IMG/VR virus record: IMGVR_UViG_3300020446_001464 | Span: 1 to 25,818 of that record | From: a virus | Strand: one strand, 5' to 3' | DNA: 25,818 nt | Shown here: in pieces, positions 7,618-25,818 of the stretch | Layout: each line of letters opens with the position of its first letter | Position numbering within the stretch: position 1 is the stretch's first letter | Made by a program: the position numbers and the translations under genes | The notes under the pieces: generated by a model | What the model saw: the letters and a program-made list of their open reading frames with translations, nothing else | Told to the model about the DNA's origin: nothing | The model's database searches: none

Positions 7618-9210
7618 TTAAAATTCGAGTATGATTTTAATGTCTTCCTTTTGACGAGAGTTTCTAACGATCAAAGGTCTATTATCTAAGTAAACTATTT
7701 CACCTGACCCTTTATTTATCTCAGAATTAGATAGTCCTCCAGTAAAGTTCACTCCTAAGTTAATTAATTTGTTTCCTTGAGGGTTAGTTGTAATTCCTGA
7801 AAAATTCAAATCAACTGAACCAGAGAATGATGATGATTTACCTTTTATATTGTTTGATCCGACTTGTGCTTCAAATTCAAAAATTCTAGCAGCTGTTGAT
7901 ATTCCAATATAATCAGTATGATCATAGGTGGTAGTATTGAAAAATAATGATCTATCTCTAAAATATTTCAAAACTTTTGTTTCAGGATCAAACGATGCAA
8001 CATATGCAGTTGCAACTTTCCCGATGTTTGGAGCAACTGTTAATACCTGTTGAATTTCTTCACCAATTTCAGGAGTATCAACTGTTCCATCATTAAATTT
8101 AATAGCTTGTAATGATGAGAATGTATTGTCAATATAAGTTGCTGCGGTTCCCACTTTTGTTGGATTTTTTACAATTCCAACCTGTGCAAATTTTGTATCT
8201 ATAGGAAAGTCTTTTGTTGAATCATCAAATCGAGCATATACTATTACTCTATCAGTCCCCAATTCAGTATACAAATCATGACCATGACCTTTTGATGGAG
8301 GTATGATAGGTATTAATTTTGCAAAATCTGTTGAAGTTCTAACACCAGTATTTAAATTTCCCAAATCAACTATTCCATAACTATATCCACTTCCACCAGA
8401 GGTAACTGTGACTTTAGTTATTTTATTATTTTCTACATCTACTCTTGCTTTTGCACCTGTACCATCACCTACGATGTCAACTTCTTGATTTTTGCCATCA
8501 CTATAACCATCACCAGCCTTATCAATATAAACATGTTTTATTTGATTTAAATTAACATCTGAATCCCCATTTTCACGGACTGTTCTTATCTGAGTATCTT
8601 GACTACTATTCCAATTATTAGGAACTGTTATGAATTCTGTCGAGTCAAATTTAATAATATCACTAGGTGAAACAGTGAAAAGATACTTCCAAACATATCC
8701 ATCACCGCTGTTACCTGCCTTTGAAGGTTCCAAATCCGTGAATGTTGGTTCATCTTGGGACACATTCCCAAGCGGTGTATCTCCTGTTGATCCATTATCA
8801 ATACAAATGTAAACTTTAAAGTCGGAATTAAGAACGTAGTAGTTTGCATCATATAAACGATTTGCTCGTGTTAGTGGACTTGGATTATCAATACTATAAT
8901 CATCTCTATAGATTTCATACCTATTTCCTGCTACCCAATCAACTCTTCTTATTATTCTTCTTATGTTGGCTGATGATACTTTTTTACCAAACATACTAGT
9001 GTCACCAGTATGGGCACGATAAGAAAAACTATCTGTTGGAGCTGGTGTAACTGAATTCCAATTCGATGATCTTCCATAACCAACAAAATTTATTTGACCA
9101 GGATTCGGAAGTCCTAAAAATACATAGTATGAATTATTTGTATTTTCTACTGACTCAACAAAATTATTAGCATTTAATATTCTAAATTGATCAGTAATAA
9201 TTGCTGACAT
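7618..9210 (-). CDS. 8: Baseplate wedge subunit, T4 gp8-like
   Basis: 530 aa. The N-terminus (MSAIITDQFRILNANNF, then NSYYVFLGLP and APTDSF) and the segment SGDGYVWKYLFTVSPSDI (about residues 168-185) match the gp8 baseplate wedge proteins of marine T4-like phages as I know them. In T4, gp8 (334 aa) is a dimer in the wedge, bound to gp7 and gp10; this protein is about 200 residues longer. Part of the excess is a tandem G-x-GY module at about 222-283 (KAGDGYSDG ... SGGSGYSYG) that also occurs in both giant neighbours, which points to module insertion. The gene follows the giant gene after 41 bases that hold a late promoter core, so it probably heads its own late unit with the DUF4815 gene. The ATG has only a weak purine-rich stretch upstream. 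Confidence 0.85.
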   Translation of the reverse strand: MSAIITDQFRILNANNFVESVENTNNSYYVFLGLPNPGQINFVGYGRSSNWNSVTPAPTDSFSYRAHTGDTSMFGKKVSSANIRRIIRRVDWVAGNRYEIYRDDYSIDNPSPLTRANRLYDANYYVLNSDFKVYICIDNGSTGDTPLGNVSQDEPTFTDLEPSKAGNSGDGYVWKYLFTVSPSDIIKFDSTEFITVPNNWNSSQDTQIRTVRENGDSDVNLNQIKHVYIDKAGDGYSDGKNQEVDIVGDGTGAKARVDVENNKITKVTVTSGGSGYSYGIVDLGNLNTGVRTSTDFAKLIPIIPPSKGHGHDLYTELGTDRVIVYARFDDSTKDFPIDTKFAQVGIVKNPTKVGTAATYIDNTFSSLQAIKFNDGTVDTPEIGEEIQQVLTVAPNIGKVATAYVASFDPETKVLKYFRDRSLFFNTTTYDHTDYIGISTAARIFEFEAQVGSNNIKGKSSSFSGSVDLNFSGITTNPQGNKLINLGVNFTGGLSNSEINKGSGEIVYLDNRPLIVRNSRQKEDIKIILEF

Positions 9211-9251: not shown

Positions 9252-12200
9252 TCAAAGTCCAAATACTCTAATTGCACCTGAAGATCTTAGTCCTCTGAGT
9301 GATGCAGGAGAGAAGTTCTTTCTTTGGATAGTTGGGAATGTATCTAATCCAGAATTAACGGTAAGTCCAGTTACAGCGATAGATACTGGGTTAGAGTCTC
9401 TAGAAAGATTATATAGTCTACCCCAAGTAATTCTTCCAAGCACGGTGCTTATACCTGCTTGTGCAGGATCAAAATTACCTGTTATTCCTGCACCTACTCC
9501 AGTGATTTGACCATTTTGTATATTACAAACAATTTGACCATTCTCTGCACCATCTGTTGTCACTGAGTGTACTTTGTAGATATTATCTAAGAAAGTGCTT
9601 CCAATTCCCACTATAGATGAATTGTGTGTATCAACTGAGGTAATTCCATTACCTACTTTTGTATCTGTTATGAATACAGGATATCCCTGTAGTAATGTAC
9701 CTGCTGGTTTATCTGCATGGAAGAAGAATTTAAGTGCAGATTGTGTACCAACTGTGGTTGTGCTGATACCTGTAATAATTCCAGTAAATCCTTCAACATC
9801 ATCAATACTAGTAATTTTTTCAAATTTAAATGGTGGTAATTCAATAATAACACTGGGTGGATTAGTAAAGGTATATCCAGCACCTGGATTTACAATAGTG
9901 GTTGATGTTATTTTACCGTTTGTGATAGTTGCGGTAGCAGTAGCAGTAGTTCCTAATCCAACAAATTTTTCAATACCTATAGGTGCTTCAATACCAATAT
10001 TAACTGTACCTGTATATCCTGAACCTGCTTCAGTTATCGATAATCCACTTATAGTTCCAGCAATTGAAACTATAGCAGTCGCAGCAGCTGCTACGTTGAT
10101 TTCACCAGAAGTTACAAGAGCATCCACAGTATCAAAAGTAAGATTATAGTCACCATCAGTTTCATTTGGAGTTGTTGCACTTAAATGTGTACCTTTTTCA
10201 TAGAAGAATACTTCAGCATCATCTACAAATATACCATTTGCTCCACCTATTCCTGATGAAGTTGTAAAATCACCAATAATTTTTGCTGTTGGATAAATTT
10301 GTGGTTCTAATATTTCTCTTGACTTATCAACTTTTCTTCCGTTTATAACTAAATCAACTTTTTGTTTTGTCCATCTAACTGGTTTTTCATTTGTTTCATC
10401 AATACCAAGTTCAGTATAAAGTTCAGTTTCAATTAATTTAGCACTGAGAATATTATAATTTGTTCTTTCCTGTTGTTGTGATGTAGTTATACCAGTATTA
10501 TCTTTAAAGACTCTTAATTCATCACCAATTTTAACAGATTCAAATACATCTGCTGTATCAACATCAACTCCATCTTGACCCTTATAGAAGAATATATCAA
10601 CGTGGTCATGGTCATTTAAATCTGGTGATGATTCAGGTCTTGGAGGTTCAACTAACTCGAAAGTCGTACCACCATTAAATATATAATTTTCGCCAGGTAT
10701 TTGTAATACACCATTAATGAAAATTAAGAGAACAGAGTTTAAATCAATTAGTTGAGATCTAGAATCATTAGGATCTTTTTCAAAACTTAATAATTGTCCA
10801 TTAAAGACTAATGGGAATCTACGTCTCGCACCATCTTGTAAATTTTTAATACTATCAATAAAATCTAATTCACCAAACTGCCATGATGAAAAACTATCAG
10901 TAAATGTTTTAATTACTTCTAATTCAAATTCTTGTATTGGTTGTGATAAATGTGCTGCTGTTACTAACCCAACTGGTTTGAATTTATCACCAACTTTAAA
11001 TGAATGTCCTGGTCTTACTATGCTAAATTTAGAAATTTCAAAACTAGTTGAACCTATACCAGTGGTTCTCGCAGCACCAACTTCAAGATCAAGTAATAAA
11101 TTTTTACCTGTATCTGTTGTGGGACCTTGACCAACTCTTGATACACCAATCACAGGCATATTTTCATAATTTGGTTGAGGAACAATAATTTCAGGATTAA
11201 CGTAACTAGTTCCAGCTGAAACAATATTAAATGAGAGTGTTCCACCAACACCCACGGTTGCTTCTACAACTGCACCGTTACCTGCTCCACCTCCGACTCC
11301 AGCATTTAATGTAATTGTGTTAAGTGTAGTTGCACCTATACCAGTTACTATGCCAGCGATTGGATCTGAATTTGGGAAACTAGTTTTTGAAACTGCTCTT
11401 GGATAAGGATGATCTGAGAAGAAGTTATCTTTTGAACACTTAAATACTAATCCACCAGTATCAATACCAATTGTGTCACTAGTAGTCAATCCATGATTCG
11501 GTATTGTAAGAACAAGAGTTCCTGTATGTGAAGTGTAAACTGCATTTGTTGCAGTAAATACATTTGCCCCAGTTGCAGCAAAATTACCTTTTTTAATAGA
11601 TCCAATCCCTGAACTTACAAATCTATGTTCATATGCCTGATCTGTTACACCTACTGCTACAGAACCACCACGATATCCAGAACCAAACGTTAAATCCTCA
11701 AAGAACTCAAACGTATTACCTCCACCAGTGTAAACCCAATTTTGAGTTTGAACTCCTGCTTTAACTTCAAATGTTCTATCAGATACAATACCAACTACGA
11801 ATAAAGATCTATCATGATTTGCAAACAGTGTTGCTCCAACACCTGTTATATTAAAGTTTAAATTGTTTAATTTAACCATATTTGGTCTTTCTAAACCAAA
11901 TCCATGAACTATATCAGTGGTGACTGTAATAATTCCAGTTATGTTATCATACGCAGCAGTTTGAATACCAAGGTTAAATCCTGAAGAGGTTGCAATACCA
12001 ACAACGCTTGTAATACCACCAGATGCATTTTTAAATGCCTTAACTTTTGCTCCTTGTAAAGGTGCATATCCAAGACCAGGTGTTGAACCTAATGAAACAA
12101 TTAAACCACCTCTTGGAACCTGATTCTGATTAATATCAAATTCTGATACAATAAGATCTCCATTTGTTGATGTAATACCTGTAAATTCTACAGTTGAAAT

Positions 12201-15200
12201 TCCTGCAATTGGATCAGAACTAAACTCATAATTATTACCAGTATTATTGACAGTTTTAGGTGTTTGGAATATTCCATTAATGAATAGAACACCATTTCCA
12301 ACTCCCACACCTGCAGATGTATTAGCACCACCCACAGTTAGGGTATAAGTTTTTCCAATACCTGTAAAATTATCTGATAAATCATCAAATAACATATTAG
12401 TTGTATAATCACTTCTAAGGAAAGTTCTACCACTAAACTTAGATCTTACAAATGGTAAATTTGTCTCATCTCTTCTTGACCTTGCATTACCTTTAGGTGG
12501 TTCAGCAAAAAATACTTTACTTTCAACTATATTGAATGAACCTCTATGAAGTTGAACTGGATCATTAGCAACATGTGAGGTTGCTGCTATTCCTAATTGA
12601 CCTCTACGAACCTTTACAACAGGTAATGTTGATATTCCAAGAGATACATCAGTTGCATCATTTATTATGCCTTGTGGAGTACTAGAGAAACCAACCTCAG
12701 TTACTAATACATATTCATCGTTAATTTTTAAGAAATCTCTAGGTTGAATGGAACTAATACCACTTAATACAAATTGTGAAAGTCCGATACCAATATTACT
12801 GTTATGAGTAAAACCATCAAATACACCTAACGAGAATGCTAAGTTGGTAAAATTAATTGGTGTTTGGACAACACCATCTAATCCAATTATTGTTTTGGTT
12901 AGAGGTTTTGTCATGGATAATTTGTGAGCATTACCTCCACCATTACCAGTAAATGTAACTGCTGCTCCTGAACTTACATATTCAGGTCTTGTAAATAATT
13001 GGAATTGATTCTCATCTATGACTTTTACAAAAACTGTGCTTGGTAGTTGGTCAGTTACAATACCTGCTATATTTTGAGTGCTTCCTATAGACACCGCAGT
13101 TCCAGCAATACCTATAAATGTTGAATCTGGTTTGTAAACTAATTGTTCATTTGTGTTAAAGAAGTGATTTGGAATTGTAAATATACCTGTGGTTTTTGCA
13201 AGACCTGTGGTGTTTGAAGGGTTAAATGTTTTTGAATATATTGGAGTTCCTTCATGTTTTAATTCAAAATCTTTTTTATTTGCTCTGAGACCAGATGCAC
13301 CATCATAAGTTGATAAGAATACACTTTGATCGACAGTTCCATATGTCAATTTAGGTGGTTCATTATCAAAATCACTTGAAGTATATAAAATTTGATTGAA
13401 TGATTGTACTTCGATTAATGAATTAAACTCAGCATCAGGATAAAATCTTAAATTTATATCATCACCACTAATTTCACCACCAAACGTTCCAATACCAGTT
13501 GTTGAACCAGCAGATACAAAGGGATATTGAACAGTTAATATATCATCAGCATCTCTTAACGCTATAATTTGATGAACTGCTGATGTTTCCCCACATGATA
13601 CTCTGACTATGGATTTAGCAGAACTATCAATATTTTTATTCAGTGTGGCAAATGTAATTGTGCTTGATGTTCCTGTAGCATATCCAGATTCGTATCTAGC
13701 ACTTCTCTCTGTACCCTCTGGTTGTCCTGCAACTAGATATCTGAATGTGCTAATACCTGTTGTCGTTGTACCTAATCCAACAATATTCGCTCTTACATCT
13801 AATGTATTGACTCTATCATTCTCACACTGTAATTTAATTAAATTATTTTCAAATTTAGCTGTTATTATTCCAACAATACTATTACTTACACCTGGTTGTG
13901 TATCAACATAAGTCTCTGCAATCGTTGTATCACTACCATCAAAATCAACGATAACCTCACTATAATTTACTTCCTTTGTAACAGAATCTTGTACAAAGAT
14001 GCTTGCATAGAGTGAATTAAAATTAGTTTTTGAATATTCTACAATTGTATTTGTTGTAATTCCAACTGTTGTACTACCAATACCTACATTTACACCTGTG
14101 AGATTAATATTACCAATAGCAGTAGTATTAATACCAATTAAATCAGTATTAAATTCAGTTTTAATTATTTTAATATCATGATCTTTTGTAAATGGTTCAG
14201 TGGGAGTAAATACTAGATTTTTAGTTCCACTATTCAAAATTTGAGTGCTATAATCTCCTAATTTAACAGATGTGAAATTTTCTGATTTATCGAATAGAAG
14301 AGCATTTTTTTCTGTTGTTAATATTACCAATTCATTAAACTGTGTATCTGATGTATCAGGATCTACAATTTGTATTAAATATTTTGCAATATCAGTTTTT
14401 AATGGTTCGATGACTGTACTATTAGATTCAAAACCATCACTTGAAAAAGTATCGCTGATATCATCATGCAATAAAACTCTATTAGTTTTACATCTTGTAA
14501 AATCAGTTAAATTACGAGTTTTAAATGTTAAAAATTTAGATTTTGTTTCATTTTCAAGGGTATCAAAATCCCTAACCACATCAAAATTATTAATAGCATC
14601 AACTCTTTGTTTATCATTCAATTCTAAAACATTTAATACATCTAAAACTATTAATTGATTTGAGTCTAAAGATGTTCCAATTCCAACATTTGTTTGTGAT
14701 ACAATCGCAGTATCTGCAAAATTTTTCAATCCAGAGGGATGAACTAAACTATTTACTGAGTTTACGAATTTATCCCACTCAACTGTACTCTTTACTGAAT
14801 ATGATAGATTTTGATAATAATCATTATTAGGAGTAACTTGAACATCTTCATTTAATTTACCAATATTATCAAGCCAACCATATTCTTGCCTATTTGAATA
14901 ATTAGTATTAAATTGAGCTGCATTACCTATAATATTAGTAATTTGAGCTGCGACGTTAGTAACATCTCCTCTTATAATATCTCCTTTTTTGACTCTGAAT
15001 TTACCATCAATTTTTATATAATCCTCTCTTATTTCAGTTACCTTTAAATCTGTTATGGTATTATCAACAATAAGAGATTCATTTACTTCAAACACACCTC
15101 TAGTTTGAATTGGTTGAATGACTGGCAAATCTTTTCTATTGATTAATGAGGCATAACCTGATTGGAAAGTCTTAGCGATTCCAGCGTTTGTTGTAACTCC

Positions 15201-18200
15201 AGCAACACTGAATTTTAATATATTTTGTACTCCTACAATATAATCATCAACATTAAAGAAACTATAATTATGATTATCTGAGTTAAACCCTTCACCCTCT
15301 ACAGTTGTGGTTGTAGATATACCTCCTTGTGTTGTTATACCACTTTCACCAACTCTTTGAATACCTTCAACAAATATTTCATCTCCTTTTGCAAATGGTT
15401 GAATATTGAAATTATTAATTGGTGTTTCTAAGAAACAAGTGACAACCCCTGAATTACTAGTTTGAACTGAATTAATACCTATACCATTCGTATTATTAAT
15501 CGCAACAATCTTATGTACAACAGATTCCAATCCACTTATATCTGCAACTATATCAACTTTAGATACAGTTTGATTAGGTGCTTTTGCTAATAAAGATTGA
15601 GAATCAACAACAGTATTAGATACTGGGTTAAATACGATTAATTTTGGTGGTGAAACATACTTATTACCGCCACTCAGTATTTCAACATTAGAGATAACAT
15701 CTAAATTGTCTAAATTAAGAACTGGAGATACAAATGCTTCAGGACTAAGTGTTTTATCAGCAGAATATTCATATCCAATATCAGCAATTCTAACCTTTTT
15801 AATTCTACCAATTGTTCTAGATGATGGAATAATATTTGCATTATTTCCACTTACACTTGATACAGTTCTAAATTTAGGTAATTTCTTATAATTAAATCCA
15901 GAGGAAATAATATCAAGTTTTTTAATCGCTCCAATAACATCTTTTGATTGTGTTGAATATTCTAAGATATCACACTGTTCTGATGTATAAGAGGAAAATT
16001 CAGGAACTGTAGGTGAAACATCAAATGTATCATCACTAACATTTGAAATTTGATACTCACCATTATATTTACTGTTAATAAATCTTATTTCTGAATAATT
16101 TGATACCTCTGTATCTGCAGTGCTTATAAATCCACCCTTAGTTAAACCATAGAATAATCTACCAGGTGTTGATTCAGAATAATTAATCTCAAGACTTGCA
16201 CCATCTGGATCTGTGTTATTTGTTCCTATTCCAATAGTTCCAGCTGTCCCTACATTAAATGAACTTGAATCTTGTGAACTAAAATATTCATTTGTTAAAT
16301 TTTTATCATAGAATATTTTAAAATCAAATCCCGCTAATGAAGTATTTGATAAACCAAATTTTAATTTAGAATTTCTAACTACATCTATTCTCGGATTAAT
16401 TAAACCAATTGTTTGATTTCCACCAGTATTTGCTGTGATGGGTACAATTCTAACAGGGTCTGAATTTAAATCTATGATTGTTTGAACTAAGTTAAACTTA
16501 GAACTATTAATTTCGTATATAAAGTAAGCACCAGTTTCGATTCCTGTCGCACCACCATCATAAAATACTTTATCACCAGTTTTAAAATTATGATCAGTGA
16601 TTTCAATTTCATTAGTTCCAACATTAGAACTTGTAAATGACACTGGATTTACGATTAGTTTATCAAATTCAGAATTGTATATGACAGAAACTGGTGTAGT
16701 TGTTCCTATACCAACAGATATATTAGGCACAACATTTAATGTAACTATGTCATTATTTTTTAAATTATGTGTCGTTGTATTTGCTGCAGATACATTTGTT
16801 GAAACAGTTGTAACGACTTTATCAATATCACCAGTTAATTTTTCTTTCTGAGATTCAAAGAAGTATGAACCTGAATTTATACCTGTAACAGATCCCTTAC
16901 TATAGAAGAATAGACCCTCACCAGTGCTACCTATTCCCACTCTCGTTGTAACTAATCCAATATTGTCAGGACCTTTATTAATTACAAAAACTTCAGTAGA
17001 ATTTTGACCTAATAGTGGTAATTTAAATTGTGTAACATTTGGTGTTGTTCCAACATCAAATCTTAATGCACCTGCTCTTTTATTTAAAATAAGTGCTTGA
17101 CCTGTTTTAAATGGGTGATTAGGAATACGAATTGTCCTTGTCGGTATTGATATCATCTTTTTAATATTACCAACAACCGTCTCAACTTCTATTGCTCCTC
17201 CAGAAGTTGTTCCAACTCCAACCGACTGTGGTCCATTAAAATATACTATATCATCTGCTACCGAAACAAATTTATTTGTTTTTGCAGGAATCGATATTTC
17301 ATTAGTTAAAATATCTACATTTGAACCACGAGTATGTGCGATACCTATATTTCTCAATACCCTTACAACTCTTGTCTGATCAAAAATATCCAAAACTTTT
17401 AACATTTCAGTATCAGAAGTATTTCCTGAACCAACTCTTATTGAACCACCTATCGCTACTGTATTAGGTATTTGTGATAAATGAACATCTTGTATTACTG
17501 CTCCATTTGATACAAGCATGGCTTGTTCTAGAGATGTTCTATGAGTTGTAACACCAACCTTATATGTACCACCTAAATTTAAAATAGAACTACTAAACCC
17601 AGATATTGTAACATTATCCCCATTATTAACCTCGATAAATGGTAAATATTTTGCTACTACCTCATTTCCAGATTTCCATTCAAATACAGCATTCTCAAAT
17701 GTGGTTGTCGTTGTATCAATACGTGATACTCCTAAACCTACGATTTCACTTACCTCTGCTCTAAAACCTGATCCGTTTGTATTTGTATCATCAAATATTG
17801 TAAAATCACCAACTTTATATCCCTCACCACCACTTAATATTGTTAGTGAATCCACCGTTCCTGTATTTACAGATTCTATCTTTGTAAGTTGTCTTACATC
17901 TTCATAAGATTCAATAATAAAATCATTATCTGAACTTGGTTCATCAACTGCATAAGGGAAAGTATTCCTTCTTAAATTAGTGCTATTAAAATCAAAGTTT
18001 TGATCTAATGTTTGATTTTCACTAATAAATGGAGATCTATAAGTATTACCAATAAAGTAAGGATAAACACCCTCTAATCTATTAGTATTTGTCCCTAGTC
18101 CAACTGATGTAAAGTATGCATATATACCATTTGGAAATTCAGGTGTTTTACAGAATCTACCGTTGTGTATATCAAGATCACCTGAATTATTAAATTTATG

Positions 18201-21200
18201 ATCTTCAACAAAAAATCCTGCCTCATATCCAGAAGGTCTATCTGGTACTGAGGTAATATCAGTAACGTATGATGTAGAAATTATTTTTAAAGGTGAGTTA
18301 ATATCATCTGCTTTTGAATATCCAAACGGACCATATATCGGATTACCATCATATGCCCAACCTATAATAGGTGAGTGACCTGTAATTTGATTAAATTGAT
18401 TAGAACCAGTTTCTGTAAATGTATTTTCAAATTTTTTCGCAATATCTTGAGAATAACTCAGAACACCAAATGTCAGAGCATCTCCTTTTGTAGTTAATAA
18501 AGAGTCACCAAATCTTTTTGTGCTGTTTAAGGTGAGTGCTCTTACTCTAGCACCAAATGAACCTCTTACACCTCTTGAAAATGCTCTTACCTCTGTAGTT
18601 GAAGGGTCATACCCAATACCACCATTCGTTACTATAGCATCTATGATTTGACCATTTTCTACAACTGGTCTTACAACTGCACCTGCACCCTCTCCTGCGG
18701 TAATTACTCTTAACTCAGGATCTGAATTATAGTCTCTTCCTCTGTTAACAACATTTACATCGATAATTCTACCATCAATAATAACTGGTTTTAATTCTGC
18801 TTTCTCACCATTAATAATTGTTATTTTAGGGGTAACTTCTTTATTAAGAGTCACGGAACCATATTTTGTTCCTTCCTCACTTAAATATGCACCAATTAAG
18901 TTACCTGTTACAACTGGAGTAATAATAATATCTCCAGTAACTGTTGATCCATAAGATACATTAATATTTACTTTTATTTTTGGATATTCAAATATTTGGA
19001 ATCCTGTACCATTAGATTTAAAGTTTACAAAATTACCTCTGTCAAAATTAGTTGTAGAAGTTCCACCTATACCAGCCTCTGCTAATTTAAAAGAATCATC
19101 ATCTAATTTTTTGACAAGATATGATGTGGTGGTGCTCATACCTTGAATTGCAGTTGTTTCGGTTGAATACTCTACTATTTCTCCACTAGAAAATCCATGA
19201 TTTTTATAGTTTACAGTATCAGATGATGTTGTAATTCCTGTTGGCTTAACTTTTAATTTTCTGTAAGTATATCCTGAACCTTCATTTAATACTTTGACTG
19301 TGATTAATGTTTTCTTTGTTTCGGTTCTAAATCTATGAATACCACTTGCCGATGTATCAGTGGATAATCCAACTGTGTTTATTCCAGTGGTTCCAAATAC
19401 TGCATCTACTTTAGTATTGAAAATTCTTACAGTTTTTGGATTGACAACTCTTACAAAGTAAGGATCTCCATCAGATAAAGTGTCTGTGACAGTGTTTAAT
19501 GCATTATATGCTGGACCAATACCAATAGGTGTATTACCATTTGAATTATAATATACTAATTGACCATTTTCTAAATTATGCTCAGTTAAAAATGTAATCG
19601 TTTCATCATTAATATCTACACCACCACCAAAAACAATATTTCTACTATCAAAACTAATAAAACGATCTCTCTCACCTAATATAGGTTGCAAAATACATCC
19701 TCTTCCATTTCCACCAGTTAATGAGATATTTGTAACCTCTGCCACATCAAAATTTTGAGGATCTACAAATACAGATTTAACTGAACCTTGTATAATAGGA
19801 TCTGCTGTTGCAGCAACTCCACCTGAACTGGTTTGGATTCCTATAATTGGTGGGTTAATTATGTCATAACCCTCTCCACCATTAAGTAAATCAATTGATT
19901 CTAATGGACCAAAGAAAATTTGATCGTCCGAAATAGGAGATCTTAATTGAACACCATTAATTAAAATACCAATCTCTGTAGATGTCTTTTCTTGTTTTGA
20001 TGGGACAAATAAATTTTGATTTAAAGGAAATTTTCTTAATATTCTATCAGCTTTTAATACCGCACTCTCATGCTTTTTAAGAATAAATCTATGATTCGTA
20101 GTTGTTGATACACCTGCGGTAATTTGAACAGTGCTTGCAGTTCCAATTTGTGATAATGAATTATATAATTTAATTTTTGATTTATTTTGATTTGGACCTG
20201 GTACAACAGGATCAACAAAATATGATCTACCAGTCTCTAATCCCCCTAGATTAGGACCATCTGGTTTATATACAACTTGATCACCCTGAATAAATTTTAT
20301 GTCTGAATTGGGTGGTGGTTCAAATGAAATAATTGAATAATTTCCATCTAATGGATTTCTTCCCTCTAATCCATTATCTGTGCTTCCAACTAATACCTCT
20401 TCTATGACATTTGCAGTTATATCATAAGTTGGTAGCGAGTTAGAGGCGACATATCCATCCGTTTCACCATCAACATAAACATTTAATACATTACCAATAA
20501 TTTTATCATTACCATTTTCTAAAGGCACACCTGAACTTGATACCTTTTCAATTCTACGACGAATATCATAAAGTTGATTTGGGTTTTGTGTAAATCCAGC
20601 AATGTTAACTGATGAAATTGTGTGGGTACCAAACGTAATAGTGTCAATTGTACCACTACCAACACCCACTTGCTCATTTCTGTTTAAAATATCAAAAGTA
20701 TCACCTACTTTTAAAAATGCTTTATCAATATCTTGCTCTAAAATAAAATTAGAACTATCTACACCAACATTAAATCTTGAACTTGTATTATAAATCCAAG
20801 AATTTGCAAATATTTGCTTATAATTTAAAGAGTCATTTTGTATTTTTTCACCAACATTTTTTACAAAAACGTTTTCACCTTCTTCTACTAAATTAATATC
20901 AGATATTGGAACTAATTCATTTAAAACTCCTGTAATTCTTAAATCTATTCTTTTTGATAAATCTCCATTTTCATAACCAAATATTGTTTCATTAGTTCTT
21001 ATATCATCAGCAGCACTTATAAGAGATTTTACTCCAGAACAACCAAAAAATTGATTAACTGTTTTTGAAGTATAATCAATTTGATTATTAGAACCACTAA
21101 TTAATGTTCCAGTTTTTGCAAATCCAACAGTTGAATCAACTGAAATAATTGATGAACCAATTGATACATCTTCTAGTGATTTTGTTTTACCAGGTATTGT

Positions 21201-22418
21201 AAACACACCTTGAATCAAATCACGGTCACTATATCCGACAAATAGAGAAATTTTATAGAAACTTTTACCACCTCTTCTTAATATTTCAACTTCTGAAACT
21301 GAACCATTTGTTTCAATATCTGTTGATTTAAAAATGGTTTGTCCAACTAAATTTGATGGTTGTCCTGTTGGTGTAATTAAATCTGCTACAATTACTTCTC
21401 TTCTTATGAACTCTGCAGATGATGGTTTTATAAGATTTCCTTCAAGATCTAAGATTGTCGCCTCAACACCAAATAATACTTTAAATAAAATTTTTATAGA
21501 TTCCTCTATACCTTTTGATTGATAGAATGAACGTGAAAATTTTATAAAGTTTCCTACATCCAAATCAGATGTAAAAGTTTGATTTTCTAATCCTGGTAAA
21601 AATGTTTTCTTTAATTTTTTAAAAAATTCTTGAATGAATAATACTGAAAGATTAACTATAGTCGAATCTTTTAAGTGAGATGATGATTTTGTTTCTTCAA
21701 ATTTTAAACTCTCTCTGTTAATATCAAGTAATGACGATGATATTCCAACATTATATCCTGTAATACCACTGAACCCACGTACACAACCAGTAAAGAAGAA
21801 TCTCTCATGAGTGAATGTAAACGCACCTTTTACAGGATTTTGATTTGATACTCCTTGAGCTGAAGTTGAAACAATTGGTCTATCAACTATTATTGTATTA
21901 TTACCAATACTTAAGACTCTTGTTCCATTTTGAACTGTAATAGTATCATTAATAGTATCATCAACTGATGATAAACTCACAATATCATTTACACTAACAT
22001 TATTAGTTGATATATTTCGTATAGTTCTATCAGATGCAAATGTGAGACTACCATTATGTGTTGCGACATCTGTTTCGGTTTTTTCCTTTCCAGTATAAGT
22101 TACAATTTCATTATCAATCTTTAACAATCCATATTCAGAAGGAAATCCTTTTGAGTTAGGTACTTCTATGGTTGTATCAGTTTCAGATATATCTTCCGAT
22201 AAACTTGTTTCACCAAAAACTACTTCGGGTACTAAGTTATCAGATTTTAAATATTGATCGAAATTACTTATTAAATCAGTAGCACCACCCTGAAATTCTT
22301 GTGATATAAAATATTGTTTTAAAAATTCAGTCGCTTTTGGAAAATCAGTTACCAAAAATTCTGGTAATTGATTCTCAATAATTGTATTGACTTTTATTCT
22401 CTTGTCAATTTGTGACAT
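9252..22418 (-). CDS. Giant 4388-aa modular virion protein at the gene 7 position (probable baseplate wedge/fibre)
   Basis: One uninterrupted 13.2-kb frame between gp6 and gp8, where T4 has gene 7 (1032 aa, wedge). Residues 1-40 (MSQIDKRIKVNTIIENQLPE, then DFPKATEFLKQYF) and a helical region near 239-346 (including FIQEFFKKLKKTFLPG and GIEESIKILFKVLFG) look like a conserved base. An 'E-x-V-x-Y' module near 90-220 splits them. The rest is almost all short beta-type modules. G-x-GY repeats lie near 839-885, 1036-1054, 1173-1291, 1519-1561, 2168-2266, 3706-3750 and 4123-4206. 'H-x-F-x-TG' modules lie near 940, 1073, 1763, 1880, 1940, 3082 and 3640. A YHYH-like domain lies near 1347-1463, a second 'E-Y-V...RG' module near 3219-3299, and a cysteine/'HPYPR' module near 3655-3680. 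Many VGIGTT-like turns recur. The C-terminus holds FPTIQR and RGLRSSGAIRVFGL. The start is supported by GAGAGG nine bases upstream. That it does the gp7 job is inferred from position only; it may be a wedge-fibre fusion. Confidence 0.85.
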   Translation of the reverse strand: MSQIDKRIKVNTIIENQLPEFLVTDFPKATEFLKQYFISQEFQGGATDLISNFDQYLKSDNLVPEVVFGETSLSEDISETDTTIEVPNSKGFPSEYGLLKIDNEIVTYTGKEKTETDVATHNGSLTFASDRTIRNISTNNVSVNDIVSLSSVDDTINDTITVQNGTRVLSIGNNTIIVDRPIVSTSAQGVSNQNPVKGAFTFTHERFFFTGCVRGFSGITGYNVGISSSLLDINRESLKFEETKSSSHLKDSTIVNLSVLFIQEFFKKLKKTFLPGLENQTFTSDLDVGNFIKFSRSFYQSKGIEESIKILFKVLFGVEATILDLEGNLIKPSSAEFIRREVIVADLITPTGQPSNLVGQTIFKSTDIETNGSVSEVEILRRGGKSFYKISLFVGYSDRDLIQGVFTIPGKTKSLEDVSIGSSIISVDSTVGFAKTGTLISGSNNQIDYTSKTVNQFFGCSGVKSLISAADDIRTNETIFGYENGDLSKRIDLRITGVLNELVPISDINLVEEGENVFVKNVGEKIQNDSLNYKQIFANSWIYNTSSRFNVGVDSSNFILEQDIDKAFLKVGDTFDILNRNEQVGVGSGTIDTITFGTHTISSVNIAGFTQNPNQLYDIRRRIEKVSSSGVPLENGNDKIIGNVLNVYVDGETDGYVASNSLPTYDITANVIEEVLVGSTDNGLEGRNPLDGNYSIISFEPPPNSDIKFIQGDQVVYKPDGPNLGGLETGRSYFVDPVVPGPNQNKSKIKLYNSLSQIGTASTVQITAGVSTTTNHRFILKKHESAVLKADRILRKFPLNQNLFVPSKQEKTSTEIGILINGVQLRSPISDDQIFFGPLESIDLLNGGEGYDIINPPIIGIQTSSGGVAATADPIIQGSVKSVFVDPQNFDVAEVTNISLTGGNGRGCILQPILGERDRFISFDSRNIVFGGGVDINDETITFLTEHNLENGQLVYYNSNGNTPIGIGPAYNALNTVTDTLSDGDPYFVRVVNPKTVRIFNTKVDAVFGTTGINTVGLSTDTSASGIHRFRTETKKTLITVKVLNEGSGYTYRKLKVKPTGITTSSDTVNYKNHGFSSGEIVEYSTETTAIQGMSTTTSYLVKKLDDDSFKLAEAGIGGTSTTNFDRGNFVNFKSNGTGFQIFEYPKIKVNINVSYGSTVTGDIIITPVVTGNLIGAYLSEEGTKYGSVTLNKEVTPKITIINGEKAELKPVIIDGRIIDVNVVNRGRDYNSDPELRVITAGEGAGAVVRPVVENGQIIDAIVTNGGIGYDPSTTEVRAFSRGVRGSFGARVRALTLNSTKRFGDSLLTTKGDALTFGVLSYSQDIAKKFENTFTETGSNQFNQITGHSPIIGWAYDGNPIYGPFGYSKADDINSPLKIISTSYVTDITSVPDRPSGYEAGFFVEDHKFNNSGDLDIHNGRFCKTPEFPNGIYAYFTSVGLGTNTNRLEGVYPYFIGNTYRSPFISENQTLDQNFDFNSTNLRRNTFPYAVDEPSSDNDFIIESYEDVRQLTKIESVNTGTVDSLTILSGGEGYKVGDFTIFDDTNTNGSGFRAEVSEIVGLGVSRIDTTTTTFENAVFEWKSGNEVVAKYLPFIEVNNGDNVTISGFSSSILNLGGTYKVGVTTHRTSLEQAMLVSNGAVIQDVHLSQIPNTVAIGGSIRVGSGNTSDTEMLKVLDIFDQTRVVRVLRNIGIAHTRGSNVDILTNEISIPAKTNKFVSVADDIVYFNGPQSVGVGTTSGGAIEVETVVGNIKKMISIPTRTIRIPNHPFKTGQALILNKRAGALRFDVGTTPNVTQFKLPLLGQNSTEVFVINKGPDNIGLVTTRVGIGSTGEGLFFYSKGSVTGINSGSYFFESQKEKLTGDIDKVVTTVSTNVSAANTTTHNLKNNDIVTLNVVPNISVGIGTTTPVSVIYNSEFDKLIVNPVSFTSSNVGTNEIEITDHNFKTGDKVFYDGGATGIETGAYFIYEINSSKFNLVQTIIDLNSDPVRIVPITANTGGNQTIGLINPRIDVVRNSKLKFGLSNTSLAGFDFKIFYDKNLTNEYFSSQDSSSFNVGTAGTIGIGTNNTDPDGASLEINYSESTPGRLFYGLTKGGFISTADTEVSNYSEIRFINSKYNGEYQISNVSDDTFDVSPTVPEFSSYTSEQCDILEYSTQSKDVIGAIKKLDIISSGFNYKKLPKFRTVSSVSGNNANIIPSSRTIGRIKKVRIADIGYEYSADKTLSPEAFVSPVLNLDNLDVISNVEILSGGNKYVSPPKLIVFNPVSNTVVDSQSLLAKAPNQTVSKVDIVADISGLESVVHKIVAINNTNGIGINSVQTSNSGVVTCFLETPINNFNIQPFAKGDEIFVEGIQRVGESGITTQGGISTTTTVEGEGFNSDNHNYSFFNVDDYIVGVQNILKFSVAGVTTNAGIAKTFQSGYASLINRKDLPVIQPIQTRGVFEVNESLIVDNTITDLKVTEIREDYIKIDGKFRVKKGDIIRGDVTNVAAQITNIIGNAAQFNTNYSNRQEYGWLDNIGKLNEDVQVTPNNDYYQNLSYSVKSTVEWDKFVNSVNSLVHPSGLKNFADTAIVSQTNVGIGTSLDSNQLIVLDVLNVLELNDKQRVDAINNFDVVRDFDTLENETKSKFLTFKTRNLTDFTRCKTNRVLLHDDISDTFSSDGFESNSTVIEPLKTDIAKYLIQIVDPDTSDTQFNELVILTTEKNALLFDKSENFTSVKLGDYSTQILNSGTKNLVFTPTEPFTKDHDIKIIKTEFNTDLIGINTTAIGNINLTGVNVGIGSTTVGITTNTIVEYSKTNFNSLYASIFVQDSVTKEVNYSEVIVDFDGSDTTIAETYVDTQPGVSNSIVGIITAKFENNLIKLQCENDRVNTLDVRANIVGLGTTTTGISTFRYLVAGQPEGTERSARYESGYATGTSSTITFATLNKNIDSSAKSIVRVSCGETSAVHQIIALRDADDILTVQYPFVSAGSTTGIGTFGGEISGDDINLRFYPDAEFNSLIEVQSFNQILYTSSDFDNEPPKLTYGTVDQSVFLSTYDGASGLRANKKDFELKHEGTPIYSKTFNPSNTTGLAKTTGIFTIPNHFFNTNEQLVYKPDSTFIGIAGTAVSIGSTQNIAGIVTDQLPSTVFVKVIDENQFQLFTRPEYVSSGAAVTFTGNGGGNAHKLSMTKPLTKTIIGLDGVVQTPINFTNLAFSLGVFDGFTHNSNIGIGLSQFVLSGISSIQPRDFLKINDEYVLVTEVGFSSTPQGIINDATDVSLGISTLPVVKVRRGQLGIAATSHVANDPVQLHRGSFNIVESKVFFAEPPKGNARSRRDETNLPFVRSKFSGRTFLRSDYTTNMLFDDLSDNFTGIGKTYTLTVGGANTSAGVGVGNGVLFINGIFQTPKTVNNTGNNYEFSSDPIAGISTVEFTGITSTNGDLIVSEFDINQNQVPRGGLIVSLGSTPGLGYAPLQGAKVKAFKNASGGITSVVGIATSSGFNLGIQTAAYDNITGIITVTTDIVHGFGLERPNMVKLNNLNFNITGVGATLFANHDRSLFVVGIVSDRTFEVKAGVQTQNWVYTGGGNTFEFFEDLTFGSGYRGGSVAVGVTDQAYEHRFVSSGIGSIKKGNFAATGANVFTATNAVYTSHTGTLVLTIPNHGLTTSDTIGIDTGGLVFKCSKDNFFSDHPYPRAVSKTSFPNSDPIAGIVTGIGATTLNTITLNAGVGGGAGNGAVVEATVGVGGTLSFNIVSAGTSYVNPEIIVPQPNYENMPVIGVSRVGQGPTTDTGKNLLLDLEVGAARTTGIGSTSFEISKFSIVRPGHSFKVGDKFKPVGLVTAAHLSQPIQEFELEVIKTFTDSFSSWQFGELDFIDSIKNLQDGARRRFPLVFNGQLLSFEKDPNDSRSQLIDLNSVLLIFINGVLQIPGENYIFNGGTTFELVEPPRPESSPDLNDHDHVDIFFYKGQDGVDVDTADVFESVKIGDELRVFKDNTGITTSQQQERTNYNILSAKLIETELYTELGIDETNEKPVRWTKQKVDLVINGRKVDKSREILEPQIYPTAKIIGDFTTSSGIGGANGIFVDDAEVFFYEKGTHLSATTPNETDGDYNLTFDTVDALVTSGEINVAAAATAIVSIAGTISGLSITEAGSGYTGTVNIGIEAPIGIEKFVGLGTTATATATITNGKITSTTIVNPGAGYTFTNPPSVIIELPPFKFEKITSIDDVEGFTGIITGISTTTVGTQSALKFFFHADKPAGTLLQGYPVFITDTKVGNGITSVDTHNSSIVGIGSTFLDNIYKVHSVTTDGAENGQIVCNIQNGQITGVGAGITGNFDPAQAGISTVLGRITWGRLYNLSRDSNPVSIAVTGLTVNSGLDTFPTIQRKNFSPASLRGLRSSGAIRVFGL
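9800..10050 (-). repeat. C-terminal pair of G-x-GY modules in giant gene
   Basis: Codes for residues about 4123-4206. Two copies face each other: LSITEAGSGYTG ... then a GT-rich stretch and NGKITSTTIVNPGAGYTF followed by NPPSVII. The pattern (short strand, turn with G-x-G-Y, Pro-rich strand, then a T/A-rich 'GxGxxAxAxxxNGxI' strand) recurs at least seven times in this protein and also in gp8 (8360-8545) and the DUF4815 protein (about 1740-1910). It is a repeat at protein level; the DNA copies have diverged. Confidence 0.7.
18025..18380 (-). other. YHYH-like domain inside the giant protein
   Basis: About residues 1347-1463 of the 4388-aa protein. Visible landmarks in order are GHSPIIGWAYDGNPIYGPFG, then a Pro/Gly-rich stretch with SVPDRPSGYEAG, then LDIHNGRF, FPNGIYAYF and GVYPYFIG. 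The G-W-A-Y-D-G-x-P-I-Y-G-P-x-G-Y signature, the conserved D-x-H-N-G-R-F and the Y-P-Y-F end are what I know from the YHYH family of secreted or virion-associated proteins. Its biochemical role is not established to my knowledge. It is the only stretch in the central part of this protein that looks like a compact domain rather than a short repeat, so it may be the functional head of a fibre. Confidence 0.75.
18545..18900 (-). repeat. Tandem cluster of G-x-GY/R-x-Y modules in giant gene
   Basis: Codes for residues about 1173-1291, just before the YHYH-like domain. Successive units read SEEGTKYGS, then NGEKAELKPVIIDGRIIDV, VNRGRDYNSDPEL, then GAGAVVRPVVENGQIIDAI and VTNGGIGYDPSTTEV. The two 'xxxV-x-NG-x-IIDx' strands are near copies of each other, which indicates local tandem duplication of one module of about 50 residues. 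Confidence 0.7.
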
Positions 22419-22421
22419 AAA

Positions 22422-24368
22422 TTATTTCCTCTCTAAATCTCCATTATGATAACTGGAGGTATAATAATCTCTCTGGAATACAACTCCTGATACATCTTCT
22501 CCTGATGCGATAACGTCCTTAACCATATTTATGGTACTATTTGAAACGTCAAAATCAAGATAAAGATCCTTCAATCCTATTACATCATTTGATTCAGGAC
22601 ATGCTTGAACCTCGATAATATTATTTTGTGCAGATGTTGATGTAATATTGATTGTATTTAATATGACTTCACCTTTTTTATAATCAACCATTCCAGCACT
22701 TTTGACTATAATTACCTGTTGACCTTTATTATTTTTAGATACTACACTTAACACTCCTTTCATACTACCATCAAGATTTCCAGATGCATCTTTATTTGGA
22801 ACATCTGTTAGAAATGCTGTTTGATTAAATCCATTAATTGTAAAACCTGTGCTTTTTATATTAAATCCTTCAGGTTTAATGTAAAACTGATTACCAAAAC
22901 ATAATTCATATTGGGCAAATTGATTTAGAAGTGCCTTTAAATCTCTTCTTATTTTGACTTTAGTAATATTTGATGTAATGCCATTATCAACTCTATCAAT
23001 TAATATGTTTATTTTACTGTATTTGAATCTACCACCAAACTTATTAATCTCCACATTTTTTGAATAATCATTTAATGCTGTAATAACTTCAGTTCTCAAT
23101 TGTTGAGCAGAAGCAACTTGAGTTGGATTATAATAAACAGTAGTATCTAATTCTACATATAGTATCTTTAAATCAACAATCTCAGAATTAATACCAGCGA
23201 TAGCGTAATTTTTTAATTTATTTTTTATTTGAGTCTTGTCAAAATCTGATACAAATGAACCATTTTTTGGTTTAATACTAATTTGAACTTGACCAAATTT
23301 AGGAGGATCTAATTCCTCTCCTCCAACGACAGCAACTGATTCTGTTTGAGGATAAATTGTTGATATTATTGTCTCATAATCTCTAGGTGTAACTGCTCTA
23401 TATTGTGCTGAGTAAAGTCTAGGTGCAAAATACTTAATAGAAGACACATCTTCTACTTCAGCACCATTAGAAGCGTTTGTAACGGTAGTGACTGTTACAT
23501 TATCATTAGGTGTAAATAATGTTCCATCATCCTTCGTAAACGAACCTTGGAAACTAAAATTGGATGCACCATTACCACCCTCTCCCTCTGTCACAATATA
23601 TTTTACAGTGATAGTTGAATTATTTTCTAACTTTTTACCAAAGAAACCGTCACCAAATAATATTTCGTATTTTTCGTCTTGAACTTCTTGTGCAAGGAAT
23701 ATTTCAGAATTTTTAGTCAGACTCAATATATTATCAACCATCGAAAATTTTCGACCTAATCCAGTTTCATCGATTCCCTTTACAAATACTCTTAATGTTG
23801 AACTATCAATATTTGGACTATCGATGATGAATCTTTGATCTTTTGAATTATCAACAAGATAAACTCTCTGAAGATAAGTTCCTTCAAAAATGCTTATTGG
23901 ATCATCAAATTCTGCAAAAGATGTCCCTCCTATATCTCTTACTCTTGTTGAAGTAATTTCATCTGGTATTGAAAAACGAAAAGTTGTGTTTTCTTGATTA
24001 CCAACACAAACGAGACCTGGTTGGAGTGTTAAAAACCTTGGAGTCGAGTCATTTGTTGTTCCTAAGTTTATACTACCAATATTAACTTCAGCGATTGCAG
24101 CGGTTTTTGAACGGGGTACATAACCTATGTTACGTGCTAATGATACAACATTCTCTCTTATGGTCGCAGAATCGAGAAAAGACTCATTTGCAACTAAGTT
24201 TGCATTAAATGAGTTGATATATGTATTATAAGCAAGAGTATCAATTAAAACCGAGAAATTAGAACCTTCAAAATCAAAATCTGAAAAATTTGAGTTTGAA
24301 CGAAGGAAATCTTTTATTTGTGCTTTGATTTGATCAAAGTCTAAACTAGTAAACTGTGTAAAGGGCAT
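22422..24368 (-). CDS. 6: Baseplate wedge subunit, T4 gp6-like (baseplate J family)
   Basis: 648 aa, close to T4 gp6 (660 aa), which forms the dimeric ring of the wedge that holds the baseplate together with gp25, gp53 and gp7. The N-terminus (MPFTQFTSLDFDQIKAQIKD, then FEGSNFSVLIDTLAYNTYIN, NESFLDSATIRENV and ARNIGYVPRS) is the typical gp6/J-like opening of marine T4-like phages. A central segment has EILFGDGFFGKKL (about 231-243) and RAVTPRDYETIISTIYPQTE (about 325-344), which is the conserved core of this family. The gene starts 1 base after the gp25 stop with only GAGA as a possible ribosome site, so translation is probably coupled to gp25. Its stop lies 3 bases before the start of the giant gene, inside that gene's leader. 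Confidence 0.9.
   Translation of the reverse strand: MPFTQFTSLDFDQIKAQIKDFLRSNSNFSDFDFEGSNFSVLIDTLAYNTYINSFNANLVANESFLDSATIRENVVSLARNIGYVPRSKTAAIAEVNIGSINLGTTNDSTPRFLTLQPGLVCVGNQENTTFRFSIPDEITSTRVRDIGGTSFAEFDDPISIFEGTYLQRVYLVDNSKDQRFIIDSPNIDSSTLRVFVKGIDETGLGRKFSMVDNILSLTKNSEIFLAQEVQDEKYEILFGDGFFGKKLENNSTITVKYIVTEGEGGNGASNFSFQGSFTKDDGTLFTPNDNVTVTTVTNASNGAEVEDVSSIKYFAPRLYSAQYRAVTPRDYETIISTIYPQTESVAVVGGEELDPPKFGQVQISIKPKNGSFVSDFDKTQIKNKLKNYAIAGINSEIVDLKILYVELDTTVYYNPTQVASAQQLRTEVITALNDYSKNVEINKFGGRFKYSKINILIDRVDNGITSNITKVKIRRDLKALLNQFAQYELCFGNQFYIKPEGFNIKSTGFTINGFNQTAFLTDVPNKDASGNLDGSMKGVLSVVSKNNKGQQVIIVKSAGMVDYKKGEVILNTINITSTSAQNNIIEVQACPESNDVIGLKDLYLDFDVSNSTINMVKDVIASGEDVSGVVFQRDYYTSSYHNGDLERK
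22428..22433 (-). promoter_or_regulatory. Strong ribosome binding site for the giant gene
   Basis: The minus strand reads GAGAGG followed by nine bases and the ATG at 22416-22418. It lies inside the last codons of gene 6 (LERK, stop TAA at 22422-22424). It is the clearest Shine-Dalgarno site in the window; the other starts in the region have weak or no such site. It fixes the start of the 4388-aa protein. Confidence 0.7.
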
Positions 24369-24369
24369 A

Positions 24370-24771
24370 TTATCTCGTTGGTTCTAATATGAATGAAAAA
24401 CTTTGAGTAGGTATATCTAAACCTATAATATCAAAAAGCACATTAACTTCAAATTCATTATTATCAGGTGCTGCATTTACCTCAACACCAATCTCTCCTA
24501 CTCTTGGTTCATAGTTTCGGATTGTATTCCGAACCATATCCTCAATTAACATAACAGATGATGCTGAAAAGTTTTCAAATAGCATCTCACGAACATCTGT
24601 ACCTAAATTTGAGTCAAAAAATCTCTCTGTAGGTATTGTTTCAACTAAATTCCTCACTGATCGTACGATTGCTCGCTCATTTGTAAGGACAGTGAGATCT
24701 TTTGTTACTGGATGTACGTCAAAAGACAAACTTATATCCTTAAATGCTCTTGATCTGCGTTGAATCGCCAT
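24370..24771 (-). CDS. 25: Baseplate wedge subunit, gp25/GPW family
   Basis: 133 aa, the usual length of T4 gp25 (132 aa). The family signs are the RSVRNLVETIPTERFF segment (about 37-52), LGTDVREMLFENF (about 56-68) and the EPRVGEIGVEV motif (about 89-99), which is the conserved EPR loop of gp25-like wedge proteins. In T4, gp25 sits in the wedge core and links to the sheath; it was once described as a lysozyme, but its role is structural. It is the first gene after the late promoter at 24790-24797 and precedes gene 6 by 1 base, the expected core wedge pair. Confidence 0.93.
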   Translation of the reverse strand: MAIQRRSRAFKDISLSFDVHPVTKDLTVLTNERAIVRSVRNLVETIPTERFFDSNLGTDVREMLFENFSASSVMLIEDMVRNTIRNYEPRVGEIGVEVNAAPDNNEFEVNVLFDIIGLDIPTQSFSFILEPTR

Positions 24772-24799: not shown

Positions 24800-25153
24800 C
24801 TATCTTGCATAATCTTTCATGACATAATCATCACTATCAAAGTATTCAAGTAACCACCATGCTACTGATCTTGGATTTGTGCCTCCACAAGTGAAAATAT
24901 CAAATGCAACACACCCTTTTTCTGGCCAAGTATGGCATGAAAGGTGACTTTCACCTAAAGAAACAGTGCAAGTGACTCCATATGGGTCAAATTGATGAGT
25001 GTAAACGTTAAGTATCTGCAAATTTTCAGTTTGACATGCTCCAACACACCTTTCTTCAATTTTTTTGACATCATTTAACTTATCAAAGGTAACATTATAC
25101 ACTTCAGCAAGTAGATGTGTGCCCATATGAGCATTTTTAACGTGTTTTTTCAT
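24800..25153 (-). CDS. speD: S-adenosylmethionine decarboxylase proenzyme (SpeD)
   Basis: 117 aa from the chosen start, the size of prokaryotic class 1 enzymes. It removes the carboxyl group of S-adenosylmethionine; the product donates aminopropyl groups for spermidine. The proenzyme cleaves itself at the Glu-Ser bond of LGESHLSCHTWPE to make a pyruvoyl group from Ser69. His74 and Cys89 (in DIFTCGG) match the catalytic His68 and Cys83 of the Thermotoga enzyme with the same spacing (Ser+5, Ser+20). The N-terminus GTHLLAEVYN is typical. The ATG at 25151-25153 gives MKKHVKNAHMGTH; ATGs at 25156 and 25168 or one at 25126 are possible, and the frame extends further only to a TTG. It overlaps the upstream gene by 17 bases. 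speD is a known auxiliary gene of marine cyanophages; all catalytic residues are present, so it should be active. No speE is near. Confidence 0.95.
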   Translation of the reverse strand: MKKHVKNAHMGTHLLAEVYNVTFDKLNDVKKIEERCVGACQTENLQILNVYTHQFDPYGVTCTVSLGESHLSCHTWPEKGCVAFDIFTCGGTNPRSVAWWLLEYFDSDDYVMKDYAR

Positions 25154-25604
25154 CATTAATGATTCCATAGTCTTCTTCGAGTACCTCTTCAAGGTAATTT
25201 TTGTCCCAATAGTCGTAATAATTGGTTTTTGCAAGTTTTTTTCTTGCTTCAGTCAGTTCTTTTCTTGGTTGACAAAGAACTAAGTTATATTTTCCATTAC
25301 TTGTTTGAACTCCTTGTATGTATGTCTTCGTTTTTCCATGATCTGCGATAAATTTATAGTCTGAATAGTTGTGATTATAGTCATCAACAGCATCATATAG
25401 AAATTGTTTGTCAATATCATCTTCAACGATGTAAATAATCACATCATATTCATCATTTGGCATAATTCGACACAATTTTTCTTCAAAAATTGCAAATTTC
25501 GCCTTTGATGCATATGGACATATTGCAAAACTTCCTAATTCTGGTCGAATTTTAGATAATTGACCAATCCAGTGTAAAATATACCTACTCTTCTCGTCTT
25601 TCAT
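25137..25604 (-). CDS. Conserved-looking unknown protein upstream of speD
   Basis: 155 aa from the first ATG (25602-25604, MKDEKSRYILHWIGQL); the frame also offers a GTG at 25637, which I consider less likely because it would overlap the previous gene by 53 bases instead of 20. I do not recognise the family. Visible features are a short alpha/beta N-terminal part with GSFAICPYASKAKFAIFEEK, a hydrophobic strand DVIIYIVEDD, then YIQGVQTSNGKYNLVLCQPR, a helical ARKKLAKTNYYDYWDKNYLE and an acidic C-terminus (EEVLEEDYG). There are three cysteines (in AICPYA, KLCRIM, VLCQPR). The CPYA segment recalls the CPFA motif of DUF1415 proteins, but nothing else seen supports that. It lies between two genes it overlaps, so the three form a coupled unit with speD. 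Confidence 0.75.
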   Translation of the reverse strand: MKDEKSRYILHWIGQLSKIRPELGSFAICPYASKAKFAIFEEKLCRIMPNDEYDVIIYIVEDDIDKQFLYDAVDDYNHNYSDYKFIADHGKTKTYIQGVQTSNGKYNLVLCQPRKELTEARKKLAKTNYYDYWDKNYLEEVLEEDYGIINDEKTR

Positions 25605-25818
25605 CAGGTGTCGTCCAGAAGTAATCGTCACAATCACCCAATCGACCCCAATTTACATCATTCTCAACCTCAAAGATACGTGTCGAAACCTTAAAATCAG
25701 GTATTTTCACGTTCTGAGGTGTCATCGAGGTATCAAAGATGCGACAACGGTTGTTTGGATAGAGACAAAACTGCCCATTTCGCAATTCAATCAAGTTAAA
25801 TGACTTATGTTCATCGGG
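25585..25818 (-). CDS. Unknown small phage protein, start beyond right window edge
   Basis: The frame is open from the window edge to the TAG/TGA-type stop at 25585-25587, 77 codons in view. The first internal start codon is only a TTG at 25792-25794, and the upstream codons (PDEHKSFN) read on smoothly, so I treat the gene as 5' truncated. The visible part reads NLIELRNGQFCLYPNNRC, then RIFDTSMTP, DFKVSTRIFEVEN and WGRLGDCDDYFWTTPDE. It is polar, with no membrane segment, and is rich in aromatic residues and in conserved-looking Asn/Gly turns. I recognise the style as a marine T4-like phage hypothetical protein but know no function. It overlaps the next gene by 20 bases. Confidence 0.7.
   Translation of the reverse strand, partial: PDEHKSFNLIELRNGQFCLYPNNRCRIFDTSMTPQNVKIPDFKVSTRIFEVENDVNWGRLGDCDDYFWTTPDERREE

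Follow-up and report, generated by a model that had tools for sequence, protein, structure and literature searches.

Sequence comparisons support a gp7 identity, with a probably split core, for the 4388-residue protein in the gene 7 slot of a cyanomyovirus contig

Which protein fills the gene 7 slot of the baseplate wedge in marine cyanomyoviruses is a question to which the literature gives inconsistent answers. Most of the sequenced myoviruses that infect abundant marine cyanobacteria encode giant gene-7 proteins; sequence records name these gp7, while comparative papers hold that gp7 is lacking or that VrlC stands in for it. In one such paper, gp7 is listed among the genes of the non-cyanophage core (PMC3037559), and a study from 2020 describes cyanomyophages and pelagimyophages as having no gp7, with VrlC as its substitute (PMC7029224). 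The window analysed here is an entire record, a virus contig of 25,818 bases (IMG/VR record IMGVR_UViG_3300020446_001464), which resembles DNA of Prochlorococcus and Synechococcus myoviruses, the nearest isolates being P-SSM2 and P-SSM5 (~70% identity). Along its minus strand, a 166-aa ORF, SpeD, gp25, gp6, a giant ORF, gp8 and a 2476-aa VrlC-type protein follow one another:

25137–25637, minus strand: 166-aa ORF (PHROG 10325, E 2e-30), which overlaps speD where that gene is listed to start
24800–25234, minus strand: S-adenosylmethionine decarboxylase gene speD (Pfam E 5e-31), directly upstream of gp25
24370–24771, minus strand: gp25 wedge protein (Pfam GPW_gp25, E 1e-11)
22422–24368, minus strand: gp6, the expected wedge partner (Pfam Gp6, E 6e-17), immediately upstream of the giant ORF
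9252–22418, minus strand: giant gene assigned to gp7, whole, 4388 aa (PHROG 2885 at residues 208–4367, 3746 bits)
7618–9210, minus strand: gp8 wedge protein (Pfam Phage-Gp8, E 3e-14), downstream of the giant ORF
185–7615, minus strand: VrlC-type protein (DUF4815, PHROG 358), without a T4 gp7 match and not a gp7 homologue

Phage-borne speD is a known cyanophage auxiliary gene. The giant ORF starts with ATG, encodes a protein of ~473 kDa and is preceded by GAGAGGAAATAATTT, a plausible ribosome-binding site. A sequence-only reading of the window had placed one 4388-aa protein between gp6 and gp8, naming no strand, had put it at more than four times the length of T4 gp7 and had seen it take half of the window without interruption. 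All of this holds: the frame is uninterrupted, covers 51% of the window and encodes a protein 4.25 times as long as T4 gp7 (1032 aa). When the window was shuffled 20 times, no stop-free run exceeded 163 codons. The plus-strand reading of the region is full of stops and was rejected. Since the source is a metagenome contig, the frame might in principle be a product of assembly that fused adjacent genes, but slot proteins of 4067–7124 aa in isolates share its architecture and more than 3,000 codons of the same gene run uninterrupted in many other contigs. The recurrence of this architecture in sequenced isolates and in many other open contigs already refutes such an artefact, the probability of which is negligible.

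The protein matches the PHROG 2885 profile “baseplate wedge subunit” over positions 117–4178 of 4179. Across phages, the proteins of this slot range from 767 to 7124 aa, the shorter ones being those of Cr30 (767 aa), phiM12 (1007 aa), HTVC008M (1016 aa), S-CRM01 (1454 aa) and S-SSM7 (3007 aa), and the longer ones those of Bellamy (4067 aa), P-HM1 (4446 aa), P-SSM2 (5195 aa) and P-SSM7 (7124 aa). The P-SSM2 protein (gp7, PSSM2_111) occupies the equivalent place in its genome. Records such as that of P-SSM2 already annotate the gene as gp7, so a protein of this size has precedents; judged by its sequence matches, the window protein belongs to the known giant gp7 family and is of ordinary size for its group. 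With the Pfam model PF23786 (Baseplate_wedge), it stays below the curated cut-off (17 versus 27 bits), which is reached by the slot proteins of HTVC008M, phiM12 and Cr30. The HTVC008M protein (33435–36485) carries a gp7-type core despite its annotation as “head closure Hc2,” a label probably due to GxGY modules common to the slot protein and gp14. In the slot of S-SKS1 (17306–27489), two frames of 1601 aa and 1113 aa overlap and the first part has no annotated gene, which suggests either that the record contains frameshifts or that the frames are broken.

The sequence-only reading had offered the equivalence to gp7 as an inference; several comparisons support it. A search of the PDB with the first 439 residues returned T4 gp7 and a Klebsiella-phage gp7 as the sole matches (E 0.11 and 0.14), and a 71-sequence N-terminal profile, the kind of search suggested at the time, retrieved the same two gp7 proteins only (E 2.1e-4 and 6.4e-4). 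In hhalign, the N-terminal core aligned with T4-type gp7 (T4 residues 730–813) at E 8e-8, or 5e-9 against the trimmed core, whereas no control against T4 gp7 (gp6, gp8, gp25, VrlC) did better than E 0.08 and none of 20 column-shuffled T4 alignments better than E 0.034. The clean comparison of alignment A1 with A3 gave E 2e-12; that of A4 with A3 (E 9e-66) was set aside because A4 was contaminated with HTVC-type rows. T4 gp7 itself matches PHROG 2885 at the corresponding position (E 1.3e-4). A Foldseek search with the N-terminal model, in which the helical core is poor (pLDDT about 40–50), had as its top match a T4 baseplate chain of gp7 length (E 2.1e-4), with a low TM-score. In P-SSM2, the T4 core model searched against 919 ORFs, read piecewise, found the slot protein alone (E 1.3e-5; next ORF 1.3), with two matches in collinear order along it. 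When 206 P-SSM2 fragments were scanned blindly with hhalign, these two pieces of the slot protein ranked first and second. The PDB, hhalign, PHROG 2885 and P-SSM2 tests draw on the same stretch of sequence and are thus not fully independent. A separate gp7 homologue elsewhere in the genome, which was to speak against the assignment, was not seen among the 919 ORFs of P-SSM2, the closest complete genome, the window itself being a 25.8-kb contig.

Other searches mark the extent of the likeness. The Pfam domains present in T4 gp7 (fn3, helical domain, V and VI) were not found in the window protein, and no counterpart of the N-terminal ~640 residues of T4 gp7 was detected in it. The peripheral domains of T4 gp7 are not shared by all members of the wider gp7 class, the XM1 orthologue gp17 having 242 aa (PMC10457771). 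Searching the PDB with the whole 4388-aa chain gave no matches, and with the Cr30 slot protein one match at chance level. Matches of the N-terminus to NCBIfam thiolase and PTS models lay far below the cut-off and were ignored.

The published alternative is that gp7 is missing and VrlC (185–7615) takes its place, in which case the 4388-aa protein would be peripheral and receptor-binding, sharing with gp7 no more than the position of its gene. The replacement is what PMC7029224 states for cyanomyophages and pelagimyophages, and the presence of a YHYH domain and of tail-fiber-like parts in the giant protein would agree with it. The VrlC profile, however, matches T4 gp7 at E 0.08–0.14, which equals the unrelated controls, compared with 1e-7 or better for the slot protein, and with the T4 core model the P-SSM2 homologue of VrlC reaches E 3, against 1.3e-5 for the slot protein. 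VrlC was consequently rejected as a gp7 homologue, its comparison with T4 gp7 being no better than that of the controls, and the alternative as a whole appears very improbable. The sequence tests favour gp7 and place the T4 core within the chain; they support the giant protein as the gp7 equivalent, against the VrlC-replacement view of PMC7029224.

Along the chain, the following parts were delimited:

22239–22418, minus strand: N-terminal helices, residues 1–60, candidate helix-turn-helix of the core bundle (helices predicted at 2–17, 20–25 and 27–42, low confidence)
21798–22088, minus strand: insertion of ~97 residues, residues 111–207 (alignment A1; in ~15 of ~80 relatives, absent from most)
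21159–21647, minus strand: gp7 core with FYxSKGIEES motif, residues 258–420 (hhalign and PDB-profile matches given above, E 8e-8 and 2.1e-4)
14949–21158, minus strand: central insertion of beta-rich domains, residues 421–2490, between the two T4-matching elements (residues 820–1700 modelled)
18102–18386, minus strand: YHYH domain, residues 1345–1439, in which YAYF replaces the motif that gave the domain its name (Pfam PF14240, E 6e-24)
14664–14948, minus strand: HPxG element, residues 2491–2585 (P-SSM2 counterpart collinear with T4 gp7; hhalign)
9255–12632, minus strand: C-terminal arm, residues 3263–4388 (separate gene SSSM7_103 in S-SSM7; PHROG 5342)
11298–11552, minus strand: arm module of ~80 aa, one full copy, residues 3623–3707 (module HMM, 78 bits)

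The “SKG” core match to T4 gp7 spans window residues ~292–413. A second match, around an HPxG element at residue 2560, covers residues ~2541–2577, ~2100 residues beyond the core. Compared with T4 gp7 865–901, this element gives hhalign E-values of 1e-3 to 3e-3, weak when taken alone; with HTVC008M it is clearly related (E 2e-21), and all long relatives with coverage of the region have it. A comparison of the HP region with VrlC (E 2e-5) was inspected and rejected, as the HPxG motif was unaligned; since this unrelated pair nominally beats the T4 link without aligning the motif, E-values of this kind are rough. The weak match and the conserved order together make a second gp7 core element likely, and the HPxG element is quite probably the counterpart of T4 gp7 865–901. 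The gp7 core would accordingly be split by an insertion of ~2000 aa and followed by a C-terminal arm. The proposal that a base domain is confined to the first ~350 residues is not borne out, with core homology reaching ~413 and a second element lying at ~2500–2580.

The model of residues 820–1700 of the central insertion, predicted as a monomer, is almost all beta (mean pLDDT 79, with ~90 for the first ~480 residues). Foldseek found nothing below 0.05 for it in the PDB, and its matches in BFVD are mainly other cyanophage structural proteins. Within this part, the position of the YHYH motif reads YAYF in the window and in nearly all phage copies seen, with one YCYF, whereas three bacterial copies keep YHYH. 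Relatives of the domain in cellular genomes were seen at eight loci, some of which are apparently phage contigs binned into MAGs. A zinc-dependent hydrolase function has been predicted for the YHYH domain (PMC7824862), and all 63 related sequences compared keep H1348, D1357, D1416 and H1418; on these grounds, the giant protein could be regarded as an envelope-degrading enzyme at the baseplate. The replacement of HYH by AYF in the phage copies, with HYH retained in the three bacterial ones, and the small share of the domain (~95 of 4388 residues) argue against this, and such an enzyme is improbable; judged by its sequence, an altered metal site in the domain is possible.

The C-terminal arm matches a tail fiber protein profile (PHROG 5342, E 5e-10) and, at the same E-value limit, 95 phage records, compared with 459 for the N-terminus. 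In S-SSM7, the giant protein corresponds to two genes (27042–37083): SSSM7_101 matches window residues 6–3243 and SSSM7_103 (3001 aa) residues 3263–4367. The two are separated by a 340-aa gene that carries a T4 gp9/10 N-terminal domain, and SSSM7_103 is a long array with many more arm modules than the window protein. The arm is called the fibre-like part on account of the tail fiber match and of this separate gene after a gp9/10-type connector. By the module HMM, the window arm has one full module copy and one weak partial one; hits, partial ones included, number 6 in P-HM1, 11 in P-SSM2, 13 in P-SSM7 and 17 in SSSM7_103. Module number thus explains part of the extra length in P-SSM2 and P-SSM7, though not all length, as Bellamy has no module copy and yet 4067 aa.

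Internal repeats in the giant protein were not found by self-BLAST at E 0.01, nor convincingly by windowed phmmer, and Tandem Repeats Finder reported none within the giant gene. The sole tandem repeat of the window, a 21-base unit in 2.2 copies (7089–7134, minus strand), lies within the VrlC-type gene. About ten degenerate GxGY half-motifs occur in the giant protein, two of which clearly exceed shuffled sequence. GxGY half-modules are also seen in gp8 (223–289) and in the VrlC-type protein (1938–1963), making this a module common to several virion proteins. The earlier description of everything after the base domain as repeated modules therefore fits the window copy weakly, clear repetition being confined to the longer relatives. 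The related picture of a base domain followed by a fibre-like extension stands for the C-terminal arm, but the core is split and much of the extra mass lies inside it.

This mass may protrude from the baseplate or enclose it. An appendage protruding from the giant gp7 is plausible from sequence. It is possible, though not the likelier course, that the protein is gp7 but that insertion and arm wrap the baseplate as an enlarged structural shell replacing T4 gp10, gp11 and others. Full-length identity with near relatives is about 50–79%, and a hypervariable arm tip, a possible mark of a receptor binder, was not seen among them; this pattern would rather suggest a structural role. No gp9/10/11-like gene was seen within the window, which would also suit a shell. 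The strong variation of arm length with module number and the separate arm gene in S-SSM7, on the other hand, lean to an appendage, and the tail fiber match of the arm likewise speaks against a shell.

Taken together, the protein is probably the gp7 orthologue of a P-SSM2-like cyanomyovirus, with a split core at gp6, an insertion and a fibre-like arm reaching outward. Homology to gp7 was established by sequence comparison for the core region. In T4, gp7 forms a (gp6)2–gp7 heterotrimer, to which (TssF)2–TssG is related (PMC6300606). The N-terminal helices, the SKG core and the HPxG element would come together in the same way and join two gp6 chains. In T4 both core elements lie in the C-terminal part of the chain, with large peripheral domains before them; here the new mass would consist of ~2000 aa of mostly beta domains, including YHYH, between the core elements and of ~1800 aa after them, the arm beginning at ~3263. 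With one copy per wedge, six chains of ~473 kDa would surround the baseplate, a copy number and virion position that we infer by analogy. With a single chain per wedge, a classical trimeric fibre would be less likely for the extra part than a string of monomeric beta domains. Within it, the arm looks most like a fibre, as its module number varies between phages and as it can form a separate gene. It may reach outward and carry or form a host-contact element, and the attachment signal would then pass from the arm via the wedge to the sheath. In phage XM1, tail spikes are attached through gp17, the gp7 orthologue (PMC10457771). The S-CREM2 orthologue ORF122 (77594–83407), the gene of which has, close to its end, a match to the HTVC008M HPxG region, is a virion protein identified by 91 unique peptides (PMC10665884). 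None of the papers searched gave a cyanomyovirus baseplate structure.

What is new is the test-based identity, the split-core arrangement and the explanation by module count; the giant gp7 family itself was already known. Module copy number in one arm offers a simple, partial cause of length variation, and the arm is a candidate host-contact element, giving a specific prediction for cryo-EM. Only tentatively can this be extended to a cyanomyovirus gp7 rebuilt as a split-core wedge subunit with a monomeric arm, the reach of which would be determined by its count of tandem modules (from 0 to about 15 across phages). Host contact would then be made by the baseplate itself as well as by separate trimeric fibres.

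Among known systems, T4 gp7 (1032 aa; PDB 5iv5, 5hx2) shares the SKG core, the position between gp6 and gp8 and probably the HPxG element with the window protein, but its N-terminal ~640 residues and Pfam domains have no counterpart found there, while the window protein has ~2000 aa between the two core elements and a long C-terminal extension. XM1 gp17 and the T6SS protein TssG are described as gp7 relatives that bundle with two gp6 or TssF chains and attach spikes or receptor-protein-like subunits; gp17, in contrast to the window protein, is of minimal size (242 aa), and its N-terminal helix-turn-helix (1–48) resembles window residues 1–60 by position only. The core is matched in the slot proteins of HTVC008M, phiM12 and Cr30, and an HPxG-type element in those of HTVC008M and Cr30, but all three have a far smaller insertion and no arm. 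The closest counterpart, P-SSM2 gp7, agrees in slot, N-terminal core, insertion, HPxG element and arm, with 50–66% identity over the aligned pieces, and differs in its 11 arm-module hits (nine or so full) versus one full copy in the window protein.
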